Shown: piece after piece, positions 36,474-41,098 of the stretch | Layout: every line of letters begins with the position of its first letter | How positions within the stretch are numbered: the stretch's first letter is position 1 | NCBI GenBank assembly: GCA_022447555.1 | Contig: JAKVBF010000010.1 | Coordinates: 44,837 to 93,704 of the forward strand | Reading direction: 5' to 3' | Source: Mariniblastus sp. | GTDB taxonomy: Bacteria; Planctomycetota; Planctomycetia; Pirellulales; Pirellulaceae | Length of the DNA stretch: 48,868 nucleotides | Translations under genes and position numbers: made by a program | The notes under the pieces: generated by a model | Database searches by the model: none | Told to the model about the DNA's origin: nothing | Seen by the model: the letters and a program-made list of their open reading frames with translations, nothing else

Positions 36474-37778
36474 GTGAGCACTATTTTTCAATCTCGAGGA
36501 GTTGGCTGGGGCTTATTTGTAGTTCTAATGCTCGGCTTACTCGTACCCGTCTCGGTTGGCCAGCAGGACGAGATGGAGAGCATCGAGCGAACGCTCCAAT
36601 TACTAGAACAGTTGAAGGCTTCCGAGGTTTCTGAGCGGGATAAAGCCCAGGCCGAATTGCTTCGAATGGGCCCCTTAGTTCTGGATCAAATTGAAATCGA
36701 TGAAGACGCCACAAAGGATTTGCGTAATCGACTGGCGGTTATTCGTCGGCAGCTGGAAGACGAGGCGGTTGCCGCCGTTTCCGAGGCAAGCCAAGTAACT
36801 CTTGTCGGTGAGATGACGATAGACGAGGCATTGGCTGCTATCAAATTTCAAACGGGCAATCAGGTAGAGTTAGATTCCGGCGCAGGCGATAAGAAGATAA
36901 CGCTTGAGCTCAGGGAGCAGACCTTTTGGAAGAGTTTGAGAAGGATTATGAATGAGGGTAATCTGGCGATCGACAAATATGGCGCGGCTCCGGGAATGCT
37001 CAAACTCGCGATTGTCGAAGATCCTAATCCCGCACCGGGAAAAGTTTTTCCGCAACCGGTGAATGAAGCCAGAATTTTCGATGTTGAGGTGGCTCGTGTT
37101 GCGTCCTCAATGAATTTACAGTGGCCCAATCAGAACTATACCACTGTCACCCTCGTCGTTCGCTGGGAACCGCGTTTGCGACCGATCTCGATCAACCTGC
37201 CGCTTTCGAAGGTATCGATCCAAGACGAGTTTGATGCCCCTGCTAAGGTAGCTGATGTGAATTCAGTCATCTACGGGACGATTCAACCAGAGATCCCCGA
37301 GCTTGAATTTCCCCTTTCAATAGTGCGGATTGATCGCCAGATTGAATCATTGAAATCGATCAAAGCGACGATTGACGCGGTTCTGCCGGGTCGTATCGAA
37401 GCGTTCCGCTTTCGAAATATCAAGGATCAACGGGTGGGGCGAACGATACAGAGGGCGGGCGCGACTGTTACCTATGGCGGTATTCAAAAGAACGAGGATG
37501 TCTACATGGTTACCTTGTCATTGAGTTTTGAAAAGGAAAATAATGCGTTAGAGTCTCACCAGGGATGGGTTTTCGATAACGAAATTTTCCTTCAAGATGC
37601 TAATGGCAAACGTGAAGAGTCGATCGGTTTCGAAACCATTCAACAAGACAATGCCAAAGTGACCGTTCGGTATTTGTTCCTTGAAGATCCGGGAGACAGG
37701 ATGTTGGTTTACAAGACACCCGCAGCGATTGTGAAAATGCCTGTAAATATTGAATTAAAGAAGATCCCGCTGCCATGA
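36474..37778 (+). CDS. Exported unknown protein with STN-like domain (434 aa)
   Basis: I do not recognise a named family. A signal peptide (residues about 10-30, ending near SVGQQ) precedes a HEAT-like helical stretch (about 33-100; SERDKAQAELLRMGPLVL). Residues about 114-168 (MTIDEALAAIKFQTGNQVEL through LRRIMNEGNLAID) resemble the STN or secretin N-domain fold. The rest is beta-rich without catalytic motifs. The start is GTG at 36474. The stop overlaps the ATG of the next gene (ATGA), so it is coupled to a periplasmic foldase. It may be an envelope assembly or adaptor protein. Confidence 0.75.
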   Translation: MSTIFQSRGVGWGLFVVLMLGLLVPVSVGQQDEMESIERTLQLLEQLKASEVSERDKAQAELLRMGPLVLDQIEIDEDATKDLRNRLAVIRRQLEDEAVAAVSEASQVTLVGEMTIDEALAAIKFQTGNQVELDSGAGDKKITLELREQTFWKSLRRIMNEGNLAIDKYGAAPGMLKLAIVEDPNPAPGKVFPQPVNEARIFDVEVARVASSMNLQWPNQNYTTVTLVVRWEPRLRPISINLPLSKVSIQDEFDAPAKVADVNSVIYGTIQPEIPELEFPLSIVRIDRQIESLKSIKATIDAVLPGRIEAFRFRNIKDQRVGRTIQRAGATVTYGGIQKNEDVYMVTLSLSFEKENNALESHQGWVFDNEIFLQDANGKREESIGFETIQQDNAKVTVRYLFLEDPGDRMLVYKTPAAIVKMPVNIELKKIPLP

Positions 37779-38701
37779 CCCTCCTTCAGCTGCCCCTTGT
37801 TGTTTTATTATCCGCGTTGGCGCAAGATTCGGAATCGAAGAGAAATCACAATGCTCTTTCAGCAACGGTGAACGGTTGGGTCATCACTGCGACACGAGTC
37901 GACCGTTTCATCGAAGATAAAATGACAGGTCGTACGTTGGGCTCGGAAGTAAGGCAGCGGTTGCACCAAGAGGCCTTGGAGCATTTGGTCCGGCGCCAAA
38001 TCGTTCTGGAATACTTGAAGACGACCCGCTTCTTCCGACTCAATCGGAATGCAGTGGATAAGCGAATTGAGGGATTGCGGCAGGAATTACGGAAGTTGGG
38101 CCGGACGTTGAAGGAGCACCTGGTGGAACGCCAGATCAGTCAACGCGAGTTTGAAAACGAAATCAGTTGGGAAATTGTCTGGGGCAACTTCTTAAAAAGC
38201 CATTTGAGCGATGAGCGTTTAGAGGAATTCTACAATGAACGACGGCGCGAGTTTGATGGCACTCGTCTGAAAGTCGCCCATCTTTTACTCAGGCCCATTG
38301 GAGAGGAAACCAGCCAAGAAGTGGTTAACCGCGCCATGGCGCTGCGACAGCAAATTGTCTTGGGTTCAACAACTTGGGGGAAGGCGGTGCGAGATTTTTC
38401 TGTTGCCAAGACGTCCGTTGATAAGCAAGGGCTCTTAGGTTGGATCGAGTTTTCAGGCCCGATGCCAGATGAATTCAATCGGCTAGCTTTTCAGTTAGAT
38501 CCGGGGCAAACAAGTCTGCCGGTGAAGACAGGCATTGGCGTCCATTTGATTCGCTGTTTGGAGGTTGAACCGGGAAATCGCGGTCCCAAAGACGTCGATG
38601 CTTCTTTACGAATGGCGGCGAAGCGTTGGATTTTTGATCAGTTGGCCGATCAAAAACGTTCGAACGTTGAGATTCAGTATGCTTACCCCAACGAACATTA
38701 A
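37775..38701 (+). CDS. Exported parvulin-type peptidyl-prolyl isomerase, SurA/PrsA-like (308 aa)
   Basis: A short hydrophobic N-terminus (LLQLPLVVLLSALAQ) could be a signal peptide. Then a SurA-like N-domain (residues about 25-160: VNGWVITATRVDRFIED and helices) leads to one parvulin domain (about 165-275): LKVAHLLLRPI, WGKAVRDFSVAKTSVDKQGLLGWIEFSG, LPVKTGIGVHLIRCLE. The H-x-L-L and G-x-G-W patterns are parvulin hallmarks. It would help fold exported proteins. The start overlaps the stop of the upstream gene by four bases, so the two gene products probably work together. Confidence 0.88.
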   Translation: MTLLQLPLVVLLSALAQDSESKRNHNALSATVNGWVITATRVDRFIEDKMTGRTLGSEVRQRLHQEALEHLVRRQIVLEYLKTTRFFRLNRNAVDKRIEGLRQELRKLGRTLKEHLVERQISQREFENEISWEIVWGNFLKSHLSDERLEEFYNERRREFDGTRLKVAHLLLRPIGEETSQEVVNRAMALRQQIVLGSTTWGKAVRDFSVAKTSVDKQGLLGWIEFSGPMPDEFNRLAFQLDPGQTSLPVKTGIGVHLIRCLEVEPGNRGPKDVDASLRMAAKRWIFDQLADQKRSNVEIQYAYPNEH

Positions 38702-39699
38702 GGTTTTTTTTGGTTGATTGTTTTAAGGATCGATTCAGCTTGGGCTTTGATGATTGGGGACGGATTGGATTCGATAAAGTTCACCAGTTTTTCCTGATAC
38801 CTTAATTTCTGGGACGCCGATTTTGCACCGGCTGCCATGTCTAATAATTTGATACTCTCGTACAAGGGTTTCAGCTGCTTGTCGGTCCTAATACTGGACT
38901 GGATTCTTGAAAGGCTGGATTTGACGGATTTTAAATCAGCGTATTGGTCACGCAATCCCATGAATTTTTGGAGAATGCGAATTTGCTCTGCCTCGGTCTT
39001 GCCCGCGGCTTCTGTGAGTGATTGGGAAACCCGATTGATTGATTTGATTGCATTTTCGTTCAAGCCTCGGATTTCTTGATTTAACGACAGCGCGACCTGA
39101 GCATAGCTGTTGACCAATCCCGCTTTGTTGAGATAACGCTTGGCCTGTCTCAATGTTTTAATCGCAGATTTAAGGTCGCCGGCGTCCTTGAAATCAGTGA
39201 AACGACGGGTCACTTCGACCAGGGTTTGAGCGTCTTTTTCATTAAGGACCATTCCAGCGTCATTCCGAGCGGCCGCCATGAGTTGAATCAACTGCTCATT
39301 GGTCAGGGTGCCTGATTTAGCGTATAACGTTTCTCCATCTGCTCGCACGACGTAGACGATTGGGATGCCGTTACCCTCTGCCTTATGTTGTTGCGTCCAT
39401 TCTTGCCAATCGCTGCTGGAGGTGTCGATTTTGATAGGCACAACCTGTGCCACGTACGGTGCCAATTCGCGATGGGTGGTTAATCGCTTAAGTAAATCGG
39501 CACAAGGAGGTCATGTTGATTTACCAGCAACGGCAAAAATAGGTCGCCCCGTAATGGCCGCTATAGCATTAGCGTATTGCACGGGGGTGGTGACTTCTGA
39601 CGGTTGGACCTGCCCACGGATTTCCAAGACAGGGAAACAGAATAGTATCGATACCGCAACCGAGAACCCGATTGTCAGGGGTCGATTCGTAAATAACAT
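38698..39699 (-). CDS. Exported thioredoxin-like protein with in-frame TGA at the CxxC site: candidate selenoprotein (333 aa)
   Basis: From ATG 39699 (AGG seven bases ahead) a signal peptide (residues about 10-30) leads to YANAIAAITGRPIFAVAGKST. A TGA (39513-39511) follows, and the same frame continues P-P-C-ADLLKRL through a thioredoxin-like domain (IPIVYVVRADG has the cis-Pro) and a helical C-terminal half to 38698. The TGA sits where the first Cys of a CxxC motif is expected, giving UxxC if read as selenocysteine. No other stop breaks 333 codons. The downstream frame alone could start only at a TTG (39465) without a ribosome site. The alternative is a nonsense mutation, making this a pseudogene. 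Confidence 0.6.
39459..39503 (-). promoter_or_regulatory. Hairpin just downstream of the in-frame TGA, possible SECIS-like element
   Basis: On the minus strand GTGCCGATTT (39503-39494) pairs with GAATTGGCAC (39468-39459) over ten positions, including two G-T pairs. Within it GCGAT (39487-39483) pairs with ATCGC (39473-39469) around a nine-base loop, TAACCACCC. The loop begins 28 bases after the TGA, inside the range reported for bacterial SECIS. It lacks the G usually found at the start of the loop. Confidence 0.35.
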
Positions 39700-39871
39700 A
39701 ATCTACCTGCGGGGTGTGAAGAGAAAATACCATGCCAGGGTCGACGATTCACGTCCCCCAAGCAATGTTTTTTTGGGGAAATCCACGAGAGGAAACCATC
39801 TCAAGCAACGTGCTTTATTATAGCGTCCAATTCACAAAGAGTCTTGCCATTTAAACAGCGGATCGGAAAAC

Positions 39872-39901
39872 AAAAAAAGCCGGACGTGAGAGATCCGGCT
39901 T
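39872..39901 (-). terminator. Rho-independent terminator after hppD
   Basis: AAGCCGGA and TCCGGCTT pair around a nine-base loop and, on the minus strand, run into seven T residues (plus-strand A run at 39872-39878). It lies 19 bases after the stop codon of the hppD gene. Confidence 0.88.
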
Positions 39902-39919: not shown

Positions 39920-41098
39920 TTACAGGTTACCGCGGCGTTCTTGTTCCAATTCGAGAGACTCAAAGAGCGCTTTAAAGTTTCCTTTTCCAAAGGACTCACT
40001 CCCGCGACGACAGATAATCTCAAAAAATAAGGTAGGCCGATCCTGAAGTGGTTTGGTAAAGATTTGCAGCAGATAGCCTTTGTCATCACGGTCAATCAGG
40101 ATTTTTAAGTCTTTGACCTCTTTGTTGTTTTCACGAATCTCGCCGACCCGATCCCAGACAATGTCGTAATAGGATTCGGGGATTTCGAGGAAATCGACAC
40201 CACGTCGACGCAACTGTCCGACGGTGTTCAGCTCGTCCTTGGTCAATAACGCCAAGTGTTGAATTCCTGGTGTTTGATTGTGCCAGTCAAGGTACTCTTC
40301 GATTTGACTTTTCCGTTTTCCTTCAGCTGGTTCATTGATTGGGATCTTAATCAATTCGCGACCGGAGTCCATGACTTTGGACATTAGTGCCGAATACTCT
40401 GTTGAAATATCCTTGTCGTCAAAATGTTTGAACAGTTTAAAGCCGAGAATTTCTTCATACCACTTCACCCAGGTATCCATCTTCCCGAGTTCGACATTGC
40501 CGACGCAGTGGTCGACGTAAAACAGTCCGGTTGGGTTTTGGCGATTGTATTCATTGATCGCCAGCCCTTCCATTTTTCGGAACCGCGGCAAGAAATCACC
40601 GCGGTTTTTCACGTTTTCCAAAGCGTATTTATCTGTCCGAGATACGAAAGAGTGGATCACTCGCCCAAAGGTTTTGATGCCGGATATCACTACGGTTCCA
40701 TTTTCATCCGACGTCACAACCGGTTCGTATGCGGATTCCGCGCCGTTTCGTAGCGATTGCTCATAGGCCTTGATGGAATCATCTACGGTGAAGGCAATAT
40801 CTTTGATGCCGTCACCATACAAGCCGACCTCTTGTTGGGCGGGGTGGTCTTGAGTTAATCCGGTGGTCAATAAAAACCTGATATTACCCTGGGTCAAAAG
40901 GTAGCTGGCCGATTCACGTTCGCCCGTCGTTAAATCGGAGATCTGTTCAATTTCGAAGCCAAACGCCTGAGCATAAAAATAGGCGGCCTGTTTTGCATTG
41001 CCAACATAGAATTGAACGTAGTCAACATCAATCAATCTGAGCGGGTCATTCGACTGGGAGGTCGAGCCGCTGGTCAGGGGGGAACTGGTAGTACTCAT
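39920..41098 (-). CDS. hppD: 4-Hydroxyphenylpyruvate dioxygenase (392 aa)
   Basis: This Fe(II) dioxygenase converts 4-hydroxyphenylpyruvate to homogentisate in tyrosine breakdown. It has two vicinal-oxygen-chelate domains. The iron ligands are visible as His in VDHCVGNV, His in GIQHLAL and Glu in FFEIICRRG. The C-terminal GKGNFKALFESLELEQERRG is a family hallmark. The N-terminal 17 residues (Ser/Thr-rich) extend the usual start; a hairpin at 41133-41173 lies in the probable leader. A terminator follows. No other homogentisate-pathway gene is in the window. Confidence 0.96.
   Translation of the reverse strand: MSTTSSPLTSGSTSQSNDPLRLIDVDYVQFYVGNAKQAAYFYAQAFGFEIEQISDLTTGERESASYLLTQGNIRFLLTTGLTQDHPAQQEVGLYGDGIKDIAFTVDDSIKAYEQSLRNGAESAYEPVVTSDENGTVVISGIKTFGRVIHSFVSRTDKYALENVKNRGDFLPRFRKMEGLAINEYNRQNPTGLFYVDHCVGNVELGKMDTWVKWYEEILGFKLFKHFDDKDISTEYSALMSKVMDSGRELIKIPINEPAEGKRKSQIEEYLDWHNQTPGIQHLALLTKDELNTVGQLRRRGVDFLEIPESYYDIVWDRVGEIRENNKEVKDLKILIDRDDKGYLLQIFTKPLQDRPTLFFEIICRRGSESFGKGNFKALFESLELEQERRGNL

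Follow-up and report, generated by a model that had tools for sequence, protein, structure and literature searches.

Thioredoxin-fold proteins that carry selenocysteine (Sec) at the first position of a UxxC motif are an established kind, and a 2026 inventory counts 119 selenoprotein families or subfamilies (PMC13188914). In the planctomycetes, isolates P1 and P2 possess Sec genes, and the selenoproteins discussed for them in the accessible text of the Porphyra paper are FdhA and FmdB (PMC4807772). Here we analyzed a gene from another member of this phylum. It lies on the reverse strand of a 48,868-nucleotide stretch of Mariniblastus sp. DNA (assembly GCA_022447555.1, contig JAKVBF010000010.1, positions 44,837 to 93,704), referred to as the window, and its reading frame contains a TGA at the first Cys position of a thioredoxin-type active site. 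With a probability of roughly 0.93, the gene is intact and the TGA is read as Sec in the UxxC active site of an exported selenoprotein oxidoreductase. A sequence-only reading of the same DNA had named it a candidate selenocysteine UxxC protein, which is supported by the presence of Sec genes, by homologues with TGA or Cys at this codon, and by constraint at the RNA level.

The closest described proteins resemble the product in part. The UxxC selenoprotein "Thiol:disulfide interchange protein" of family PF13098 (PMC13188914) likewise places Sec at the first position of UxxC in a thioredoxin fold. The window protein (P0001), however, scores 18.9 bits against a PF13098 cut-off of 27 and has a long helical C-terminal domain. 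The Trx7/PDZ (seleno)protein NF041199 is also of the Thioredoxin_7 class and weakly matches 3 of 20 members of the family described here (best E 1e-4), but its Sec motif is CxxU (PMC13188914) instead of UxxC, and P0001 itself is unmatched. Sec-containing thioredoxins (PF00085, UxxC) share the UGPC/UPPC motif, the fold, and the Ile-Pro turn, whereas a search with P0001 gave nothing for PF00085 up to E 1, and the protein has two additions, a signal peptide and a ~180-residue helical domain. The planctomycete isolates belong to the same phylum and have Sec genes; as far as the available text goes, P2 is a Rhodopirellula (PMC4807772), and three of the loci found here (L133, L137, and L140) bear that genus name. 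In the part of PMC13188914 at hand, no entry of Table 1 is described like the window protein, while S9 Table of PMC4807772 may hold a member. Neither of the nearest entries by domain, PF13098 UxxC and Trx7/PDZ, fits on the tested features, and the comparison of sequences points to a new family of UxxC thiol/selenol oxidoreductases.

The codon aligned with the TGA was determined in relatives from 296 genomes of the order. The search matched 28 loci in 27 genomes; after L039 (tblastn E 9.2) had been left out before counting, 27 loci were examined. The U63 column reads TGA in 14 of them, counting that of the window, and TGT or TGC in 13, so that the alignment of homologues proposed in the sequence-only reading gave a Cys codon or TGA in every case. 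The more distant of the 13 Cys-codon loci are general thioredoxin-like proteins, and one of these 13, L040, lacks the second Cys. In a profile search, 23 of the 296 genomes matched at E 1e-15 or better, with the TGA form in the same 14 genomes. Three of these 14 (G022, G026, and G008) have second, diverged copies (L105, L106, and L108), each with TGA at the Cys position. Public genome contigs scanned with seven TGA-form members yielded 31 loci, and all 31 have TGA in this column, although the query, an alignment of TGA forms, biases this set toward them. These loci all derive from planctomycete metagenome-assembled genomes (MAGs) of Pirellulaceae, Rhodopirellula, Rubripirellula, Mariniblastus, and others. 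A single-protein scan of genome contigs found no relative, whereas the seven-member query did; a scan of viral contigs found no homologue. Eight of the 31 public loci, recognized by contigs of equal length, coincide with loci of the order search, one being L146, the G285 locus from the window's own genus, which leaves 37 distinct TGA loci. Since 37 distinct loci have TGA in this very column, its occurrence there is more than chance. Of the 31, those most similar to the window come from Mariniblastus MAGs, L151 (67% identical) and L149 (57%).

Nonsynonymous (dN) and synonymous (dS) divergence were compared on the two sides of the TGA. For the 25 codons before it, dN and dS were 0.14 and 0.97 for the pair window/L151, and 0.26 and 1.40 for window/L149. 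After the TGA, the values were 0.21 and 2.42 for window/L151, and 0.32 and saturated for window/L149. Purifying selection is acting on both sides. A TGA that terminated translation would not be expected to keep the two flanks constrained. These data contradict the broken gene that the sequence-only reading had considered as the alternative, in which a single-base change from TGT or TGC is followed by decay. A recent nonsense mutation or a sequencing error in a Cys protein would take one base, as TGA is one base from TGC and TGT, and Cys homologues exist. We nevertheless regard it as extremely unlikely, given dN far below dS on either flank, TGA at the same codon in 37 distinct loci including the closest, L151 and L149, and the co-occurrence of tRNA-Sec with the TGA form described below. 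We give even less credence to a pair of genes, in which the TGA would close a short peptide and a C-terminal protein would start separately at TTG 39465. An open frame of 255 amino acids does run from this TTG, but the downstream piece would miss half of the active site, and the nearly invariant residues G51, P53, and G59 of the 20-row alignment lie before the TGA. Moreover, the TTG has no Shine-Dalgarno sequence, as the sequence-only reading had stated, and it is unconserved, with a TTG at that site in only 2 of 14 aligned TGA genes.

The genome that contains the window (4.19 Mb, 62 contigs, 97.5% complete) encodes the machinery for Sec insertion. All four genes whose presence the sequence-only reading had proposed to check, selA, selB, selC, and selD, were found above curated cut-offs. 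One tRNA-Sec exceeds the cut-off with 68.6 bits, and ARAGORN calls it SeC with anticodon tca (UCA); SelA, SelB, and SelD score 569, 357.9, and 273 bits, respectively. The SelD (L048:1393-3594) is, by eye, a Cys form located behind an NADH-dehydrogenase-like domain in a protein of 733 residues. Across the order, 73 of 296 genomes have a tRNA-Sec at E 1e-11 or better. It occurs in 13 of the 14 TGA-form genomes versus 60 of the 282 others (Fisher p 5.9e-8, uncorrected for kinship). SelA is over the cut-off in 11 of the 13 TGA-form genomes other than that of the window and is missing in G026 and G288. SelB was sought in 12 related genomes; in G026, SelB and tRNA-Sec are present although SelA is below the cut-off. 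The Cys-form genomes G021 and G178 still carry tRNA-Sec.

Some read-through is needed to join the two halves of the frame, and the UGA could in principle be decoded as Trp, Cys, or Gly, either by a change of the code or by near-cognate read-through. Variants of the code with UGA as a sense codon are known. In the window, however, TGA closes 16 of 34 mechanically derived open reading frames (ORFs) of at least 150 amino acids and is therefore used as a stop codon, too. The TGA also falls exactly where homologues have the catalytic Cys, and the single TGA-form genome without a detected tRNA-Sec appears to be gapped at that place. Decoding as an amino acid other than Sec is, in our view, highly unlikely.

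Folding confirmed the hairpin behind the TGA that the sequence-only reading had described, with its length, loop, and distance (Table 1). A stretch of 66 nt from the TGA on has a minimum free energy (MFE) of -16.3, compared with a mean of -11.6 for dinucleotide shuffles (z -2.0). Because RNAalifold returned no common fold for the 14 diverged TGA genes, and folding gene by gene placed the stems in different registers, we compared the native RNAs with synonymous recodings, in which the encoded protein is unchanged and the codons are those of the gene itself. For the 57 nt after the TGA, the mean z was -2.04 over the 14 TGA genes and -2.11 for the window gene, as against -0.22 for other windows of the same TGA genes and +0.14 for six Cys genes; the control windows overlap and were pooled, which renders the p-value optimistic. 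In 12 of the 14 genes, 0-5% of the recodings reached the native stability (10% for L029, 25% for L033). Among all TGA loci, z was below zero in 36 of 37. The apical loop lies 26-32 nt after the TGA in 36 of 37 loci and within 16-37 nt in all of them.

Pairing and substitution patterns point in the same direction. All nine close genes form the pairs of the outer stem (columns 11-15 with 51-55), one pair having a double change. For the upper stem of the window gene, two double changes were seen and 53% of cells pair, with other genes using another register; the structure was taken from the window gene, which favours it. Over the 19 codons after the TGA, seven Mariniblastus-like genes show 0.25 synonymous changes per site, the mean for the gene being 0.59, and the 8 of 294 windows with lower values all overlap this stretch. 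In eight Rhodo/Rubripirellula genes the values were 0.58 and 0.81 (rank 23 of 380), with low windows also starting 5' of the TGA. Reduced synonymous change broadly fits a selenocysteine insertion sequence (SECIS) within the coding region.

We also applied the published rules for bacterial SECIS elements (bSECIS) by hand. According to the available part of the inventory, the consensus bSECIS model has a loop of 3-9 nt at 16-37 nt from the UGA, an MFE of -7.5 or lower, and a G at loop position 1 or 2, and a subset of selenoprotein genes fails this model (PMC13188914). Folded from the UGA on, all 37 loci lie within the limits for loop size, distance, and MFE; the values of the window gene are 9 nt, 28 nt, and -15.1 to -15.9. 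An early G is present in 11 of 37 loci when the rule is applied strictly, and in 28 of 37 once the closing pair is allowed to open.

A number of observations weigh against Sec insertion at this TGA or against the hairpin as its signal, among them the lack of a common RNAalifold structure given above. The loop of the window gene, TAACCACCC, has no early G, as the sequence-only reading had correctly stated; the same holds, strictly, for 26 of the 37 loci, so that this feature is common to many relatives. A search of Rfam at a relaxed threshold gave nothing at the hairpin. L150 has a z of +0.81, and the best loop of L151 is at 19 nt after the TGA. A loop at 26-32 nt also arises in 25-72% of the synonymous recodings of the 14 genes, and 4 of 6 Cys genes have loops as well, at 31-34 nt; loop position by itself is weak evidence for a SECIS. 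When 17 nt 5' of the TGA are included in the folding, a stem formed by an 8-bp inverted repeat displaces the hairpin (MFE -18.2, z -0.87). This repeat, reported in the sequence-only reading as flanking the TGA, does exist, but it consists of seven Watson-Crick pairs plus one G.U and is unconserved: all pairs are possible in just 2 of 37 loci. As part of the signal it was therefore set aside. In L151 and L149 the downstream hairpin persists with the upstream bases folded. Once a ribosome reaches the TGA, it occludes the upstream arm of the repeat, and the SECIS-like hairpin should for this reason be free to form when needed despite the competing fold.

Two genomes are at odds with a strict coupling of gene and machinery, and the neighbourhood is likewise unhelpful. 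G267, of the same genus, has the Sec genes, and no copy of the selenoprotein gene was found in it. G288, a genome 91% complete, has the TGA form, but searches of it found neither a tRNA-Sec (E 1e-11) nor a SelA above the cut-off nor a SelB (E 1e-50). Its congener G240 has selA, selB, proC, guaA, and tRNA-Sec inside 20 kb (names by eye, except selB). In another congener, G234, a guaA that is 92% identical stands beside tRNA-Sec, on a contig whose start coincides with the expected place of selAB; the search for SelB was negative in G234, too. The search of G288 for guaA gave no match at E 1e-80. Because this GMP synthase gene, the neighbour of tRNA-Sec in the congeners, is missing too, a missing stretch of the assembly is the likely cause, rather than a loss of Sec decoding, though this is not proof. 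Among the window and 14 related loci, there were no conserved neighbours pointing to a function; beyond the gene itself, the largest neighbour group, an oxidoreductase by eye, occurs in 5 of 15 loci at varying places. In genus g24 (L123), the Sec genes are part of a housekeeping cluster, guaB-selA-selB-proC-efp-like-ABCF-guaA-surE-tRNA-Sec-ksgA, again with names assigned by eye.

With the TGA read as Sec, the product has 333 residues and contains the segment AGKST-U-PPC-ADLL. U63, C66, and P113, a proline of the cis-Pro type, are invariant in the 20-row alignment. The structure model predicts a thioredoxin fold at high confidence, and this fold matches thioredoxins. Against PF13899 (Thioredoxin_7), the window protein scores 24.4 bits, below the gathering cut-off of 27, while each of the 20 aligned members has a match with an E of at most 0.001 (best 2.7e-11); NCBIfam holds no model whose cut-off P0001 reaches. 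Some relatives have TPR_6/YfiO/YbgF-type matches in the helical domain. An SLA1 homology 1 (SHD1) domain follows C-terminally in 7 of 20 aligned members (by eye L023-L026, L029, L030, and L034), and the window protein ends before this part. The signal peptide makes export of the product a prediction from its sequence.

From the machinery, the hairpin, and its conservation, SelB bound to the hairpin just 3' of the UGA would deliver Sec-tRNA-Sec, and the ribosome would insert Sec as the first UxxC residue rather than terminate. The signal peptide would then export the precursor. Judging by its fold, the thioredoxin domain may act as a thiol/selenol-disulfide oxidoreductase, in which the selenolate of Sec63 would attack a substrate disulfide, Cys66 would resolve the mixed selenosulfide, and P113 would shape the substrate site. 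The TPR-like helical domain, together with the SHD1 domain of some relatives, presumably selects the substrate or a partner.

The selenoprotein could instead be an oxidase or isomerase of the DsbA/DsbC type, or a holdase or chaperedoxin like YbbN (CnoX), and not a reductase. YbbN has a thioredoxin domain followed by TPR-like helices; in E. coli it is cytoplasmic and has no CxxC. The E. coli protein (PDB 3qou) is the best full-length Foldseek match, yet the TM-scores are low (0.25/0.29), and YbbN is not among the 50 matches listed in a further search behind the thioredoxin-fold assignment; the matches to the model predict a fold alone. The UxPC motif is thioredoxin-like, as is the Ile that precedes P113 in the Ile-Pro turn, and both favour a reductase. 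An oxidase, isomerase, or holdase appears less likely than a reductase.

The wider distribution of Sec and Cys was followed through the phylum, where 137 of 392 genomes had a match at E 1e-6. Thirty loci were fetched and examined, and further listed matches contain a TGA. Near-full-length relatives from another family of the same class (L052-L054) have Cys. On a tree of 42 rows, several of them short and with many weak branches, the U/C label requires nine changes, and well supported branches force at least five. Some Cys forms nest among TGA forms; L028 is a moderately supported instance (81/85). In its genome, G279, neither tRNA-Sec (E 1e-11) nor SelB (E 1e-50) was detected, though SelA gave a match of 354 bits. 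The distribution suggests a repeated exchange of Sec and Cys among the relatives. Much more distant thioredoxin-like genes from other groups of the phylum (L055, L056, L060, and L067) have TGA at the aligned first Cys, in the motifs UGYC, UGNC, UPGC, and UGAC, and are candidates for further selenoproteins. In G134, the copy (L031/L098/L107) has a frame change 3' of the thioredoxin domain, with two profile matches in different frames, which is a frameshift or an assembly error.

We tentatively propose, at somewhat less than even odds, a so far undescribed family, centred on planctomycetes, of exported Sec-thioredoxins that are coupled to a TPR-like domain and, in some members, to SHD1. The family may be the part now visible of a larger group of Sec-thioredoxins in the phylum (L055, L056, L060, L067, and the paralogues L105, L106, and L108) whose SECIS loops have drifted from the consensus G, with the planctomycete SelB reading a different loop. 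Standard gene finding truncates such genes, and the ORF list for the window gave only the part 3' of the TGA. A conserved redox protein that probably belongs to the cell envelope is hence likely to be mis-annotated in a large and unusual phylum. If Sec is inserted as proposed, one family is added to the known selenoproteins, and the 37 natural hairpins form a set for testing the recognition of SECIS by SelB in a little-studied phylum.

The features of the locus are compiled in Table 1. The start at ATG 39699, the AGG site, and the in-frame TGA of the sequence-only reading, as well as the PPC and the 270 open codons behind the TGA, were all reproduced; the TGA occupies 39513-39511, and the frame ends with TAA at 38700-38698.

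Table 1. Features of the probable selenoprotein locus (positions within the window)
Feature	Position	Strand	Remarks
Selenoprotein gene	38698..39699	(-)	333 codons including Sec, plus stop TAA; start ATG 39699; TGA (Sec) is codon 63
In-frame TGA as selenocysteine, U63 of U63-P-P-C66	39511..39513	(-)	TGA or Cys codon in this column of homologues
Shine-Dalgarno-like AGGT	39705..39708	(-)	AGG 39708-39706, ending 6 nt 5' of ATG 39699-39697
Predicted N-terminal signal peptide, about residues 1-30	39610..39699	(-)	By eye; residues 10-29 with model confidence (pLDDT) <50; from sequence, alignment, and model
Thioredoxin-fold domain, residues 37-148	39256..39591	(-)	Alignment, structure model, domain matches
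C-terminal all-helical TPR-like domain, residues 154-330	38710..39240	(-)	Model; domain matches in some relatives
SECIS-like hairpin, 45 nt	39459..39503	(-)	Starts 7 nt after TGA; folding, synonymous recoding, covariation
Apical loop TAACCACCC, 9 nt	39474..39482	(-)	28 nt after TGA
Intrinsic-terminator-like hairpin	39877..39901	(-)	3' of the upstream glyoxalase/HPPD-like gene

The upstream glyoxalase/HPPD-like gene ends at 39920. Because the terminator-like hairpin follows it, the selenoprotein gene is probably its own transcription unit; four terminator-like sites were found, compared with 1.8 expected in shuffles. On the other side, a SurA/PpiC-like peptidyl-prolyl isomerase gene on the forward strand (37775-38701) converges with the selenoprotein gene, and the stop codons of the two overlap in TTAA (38698-38701).
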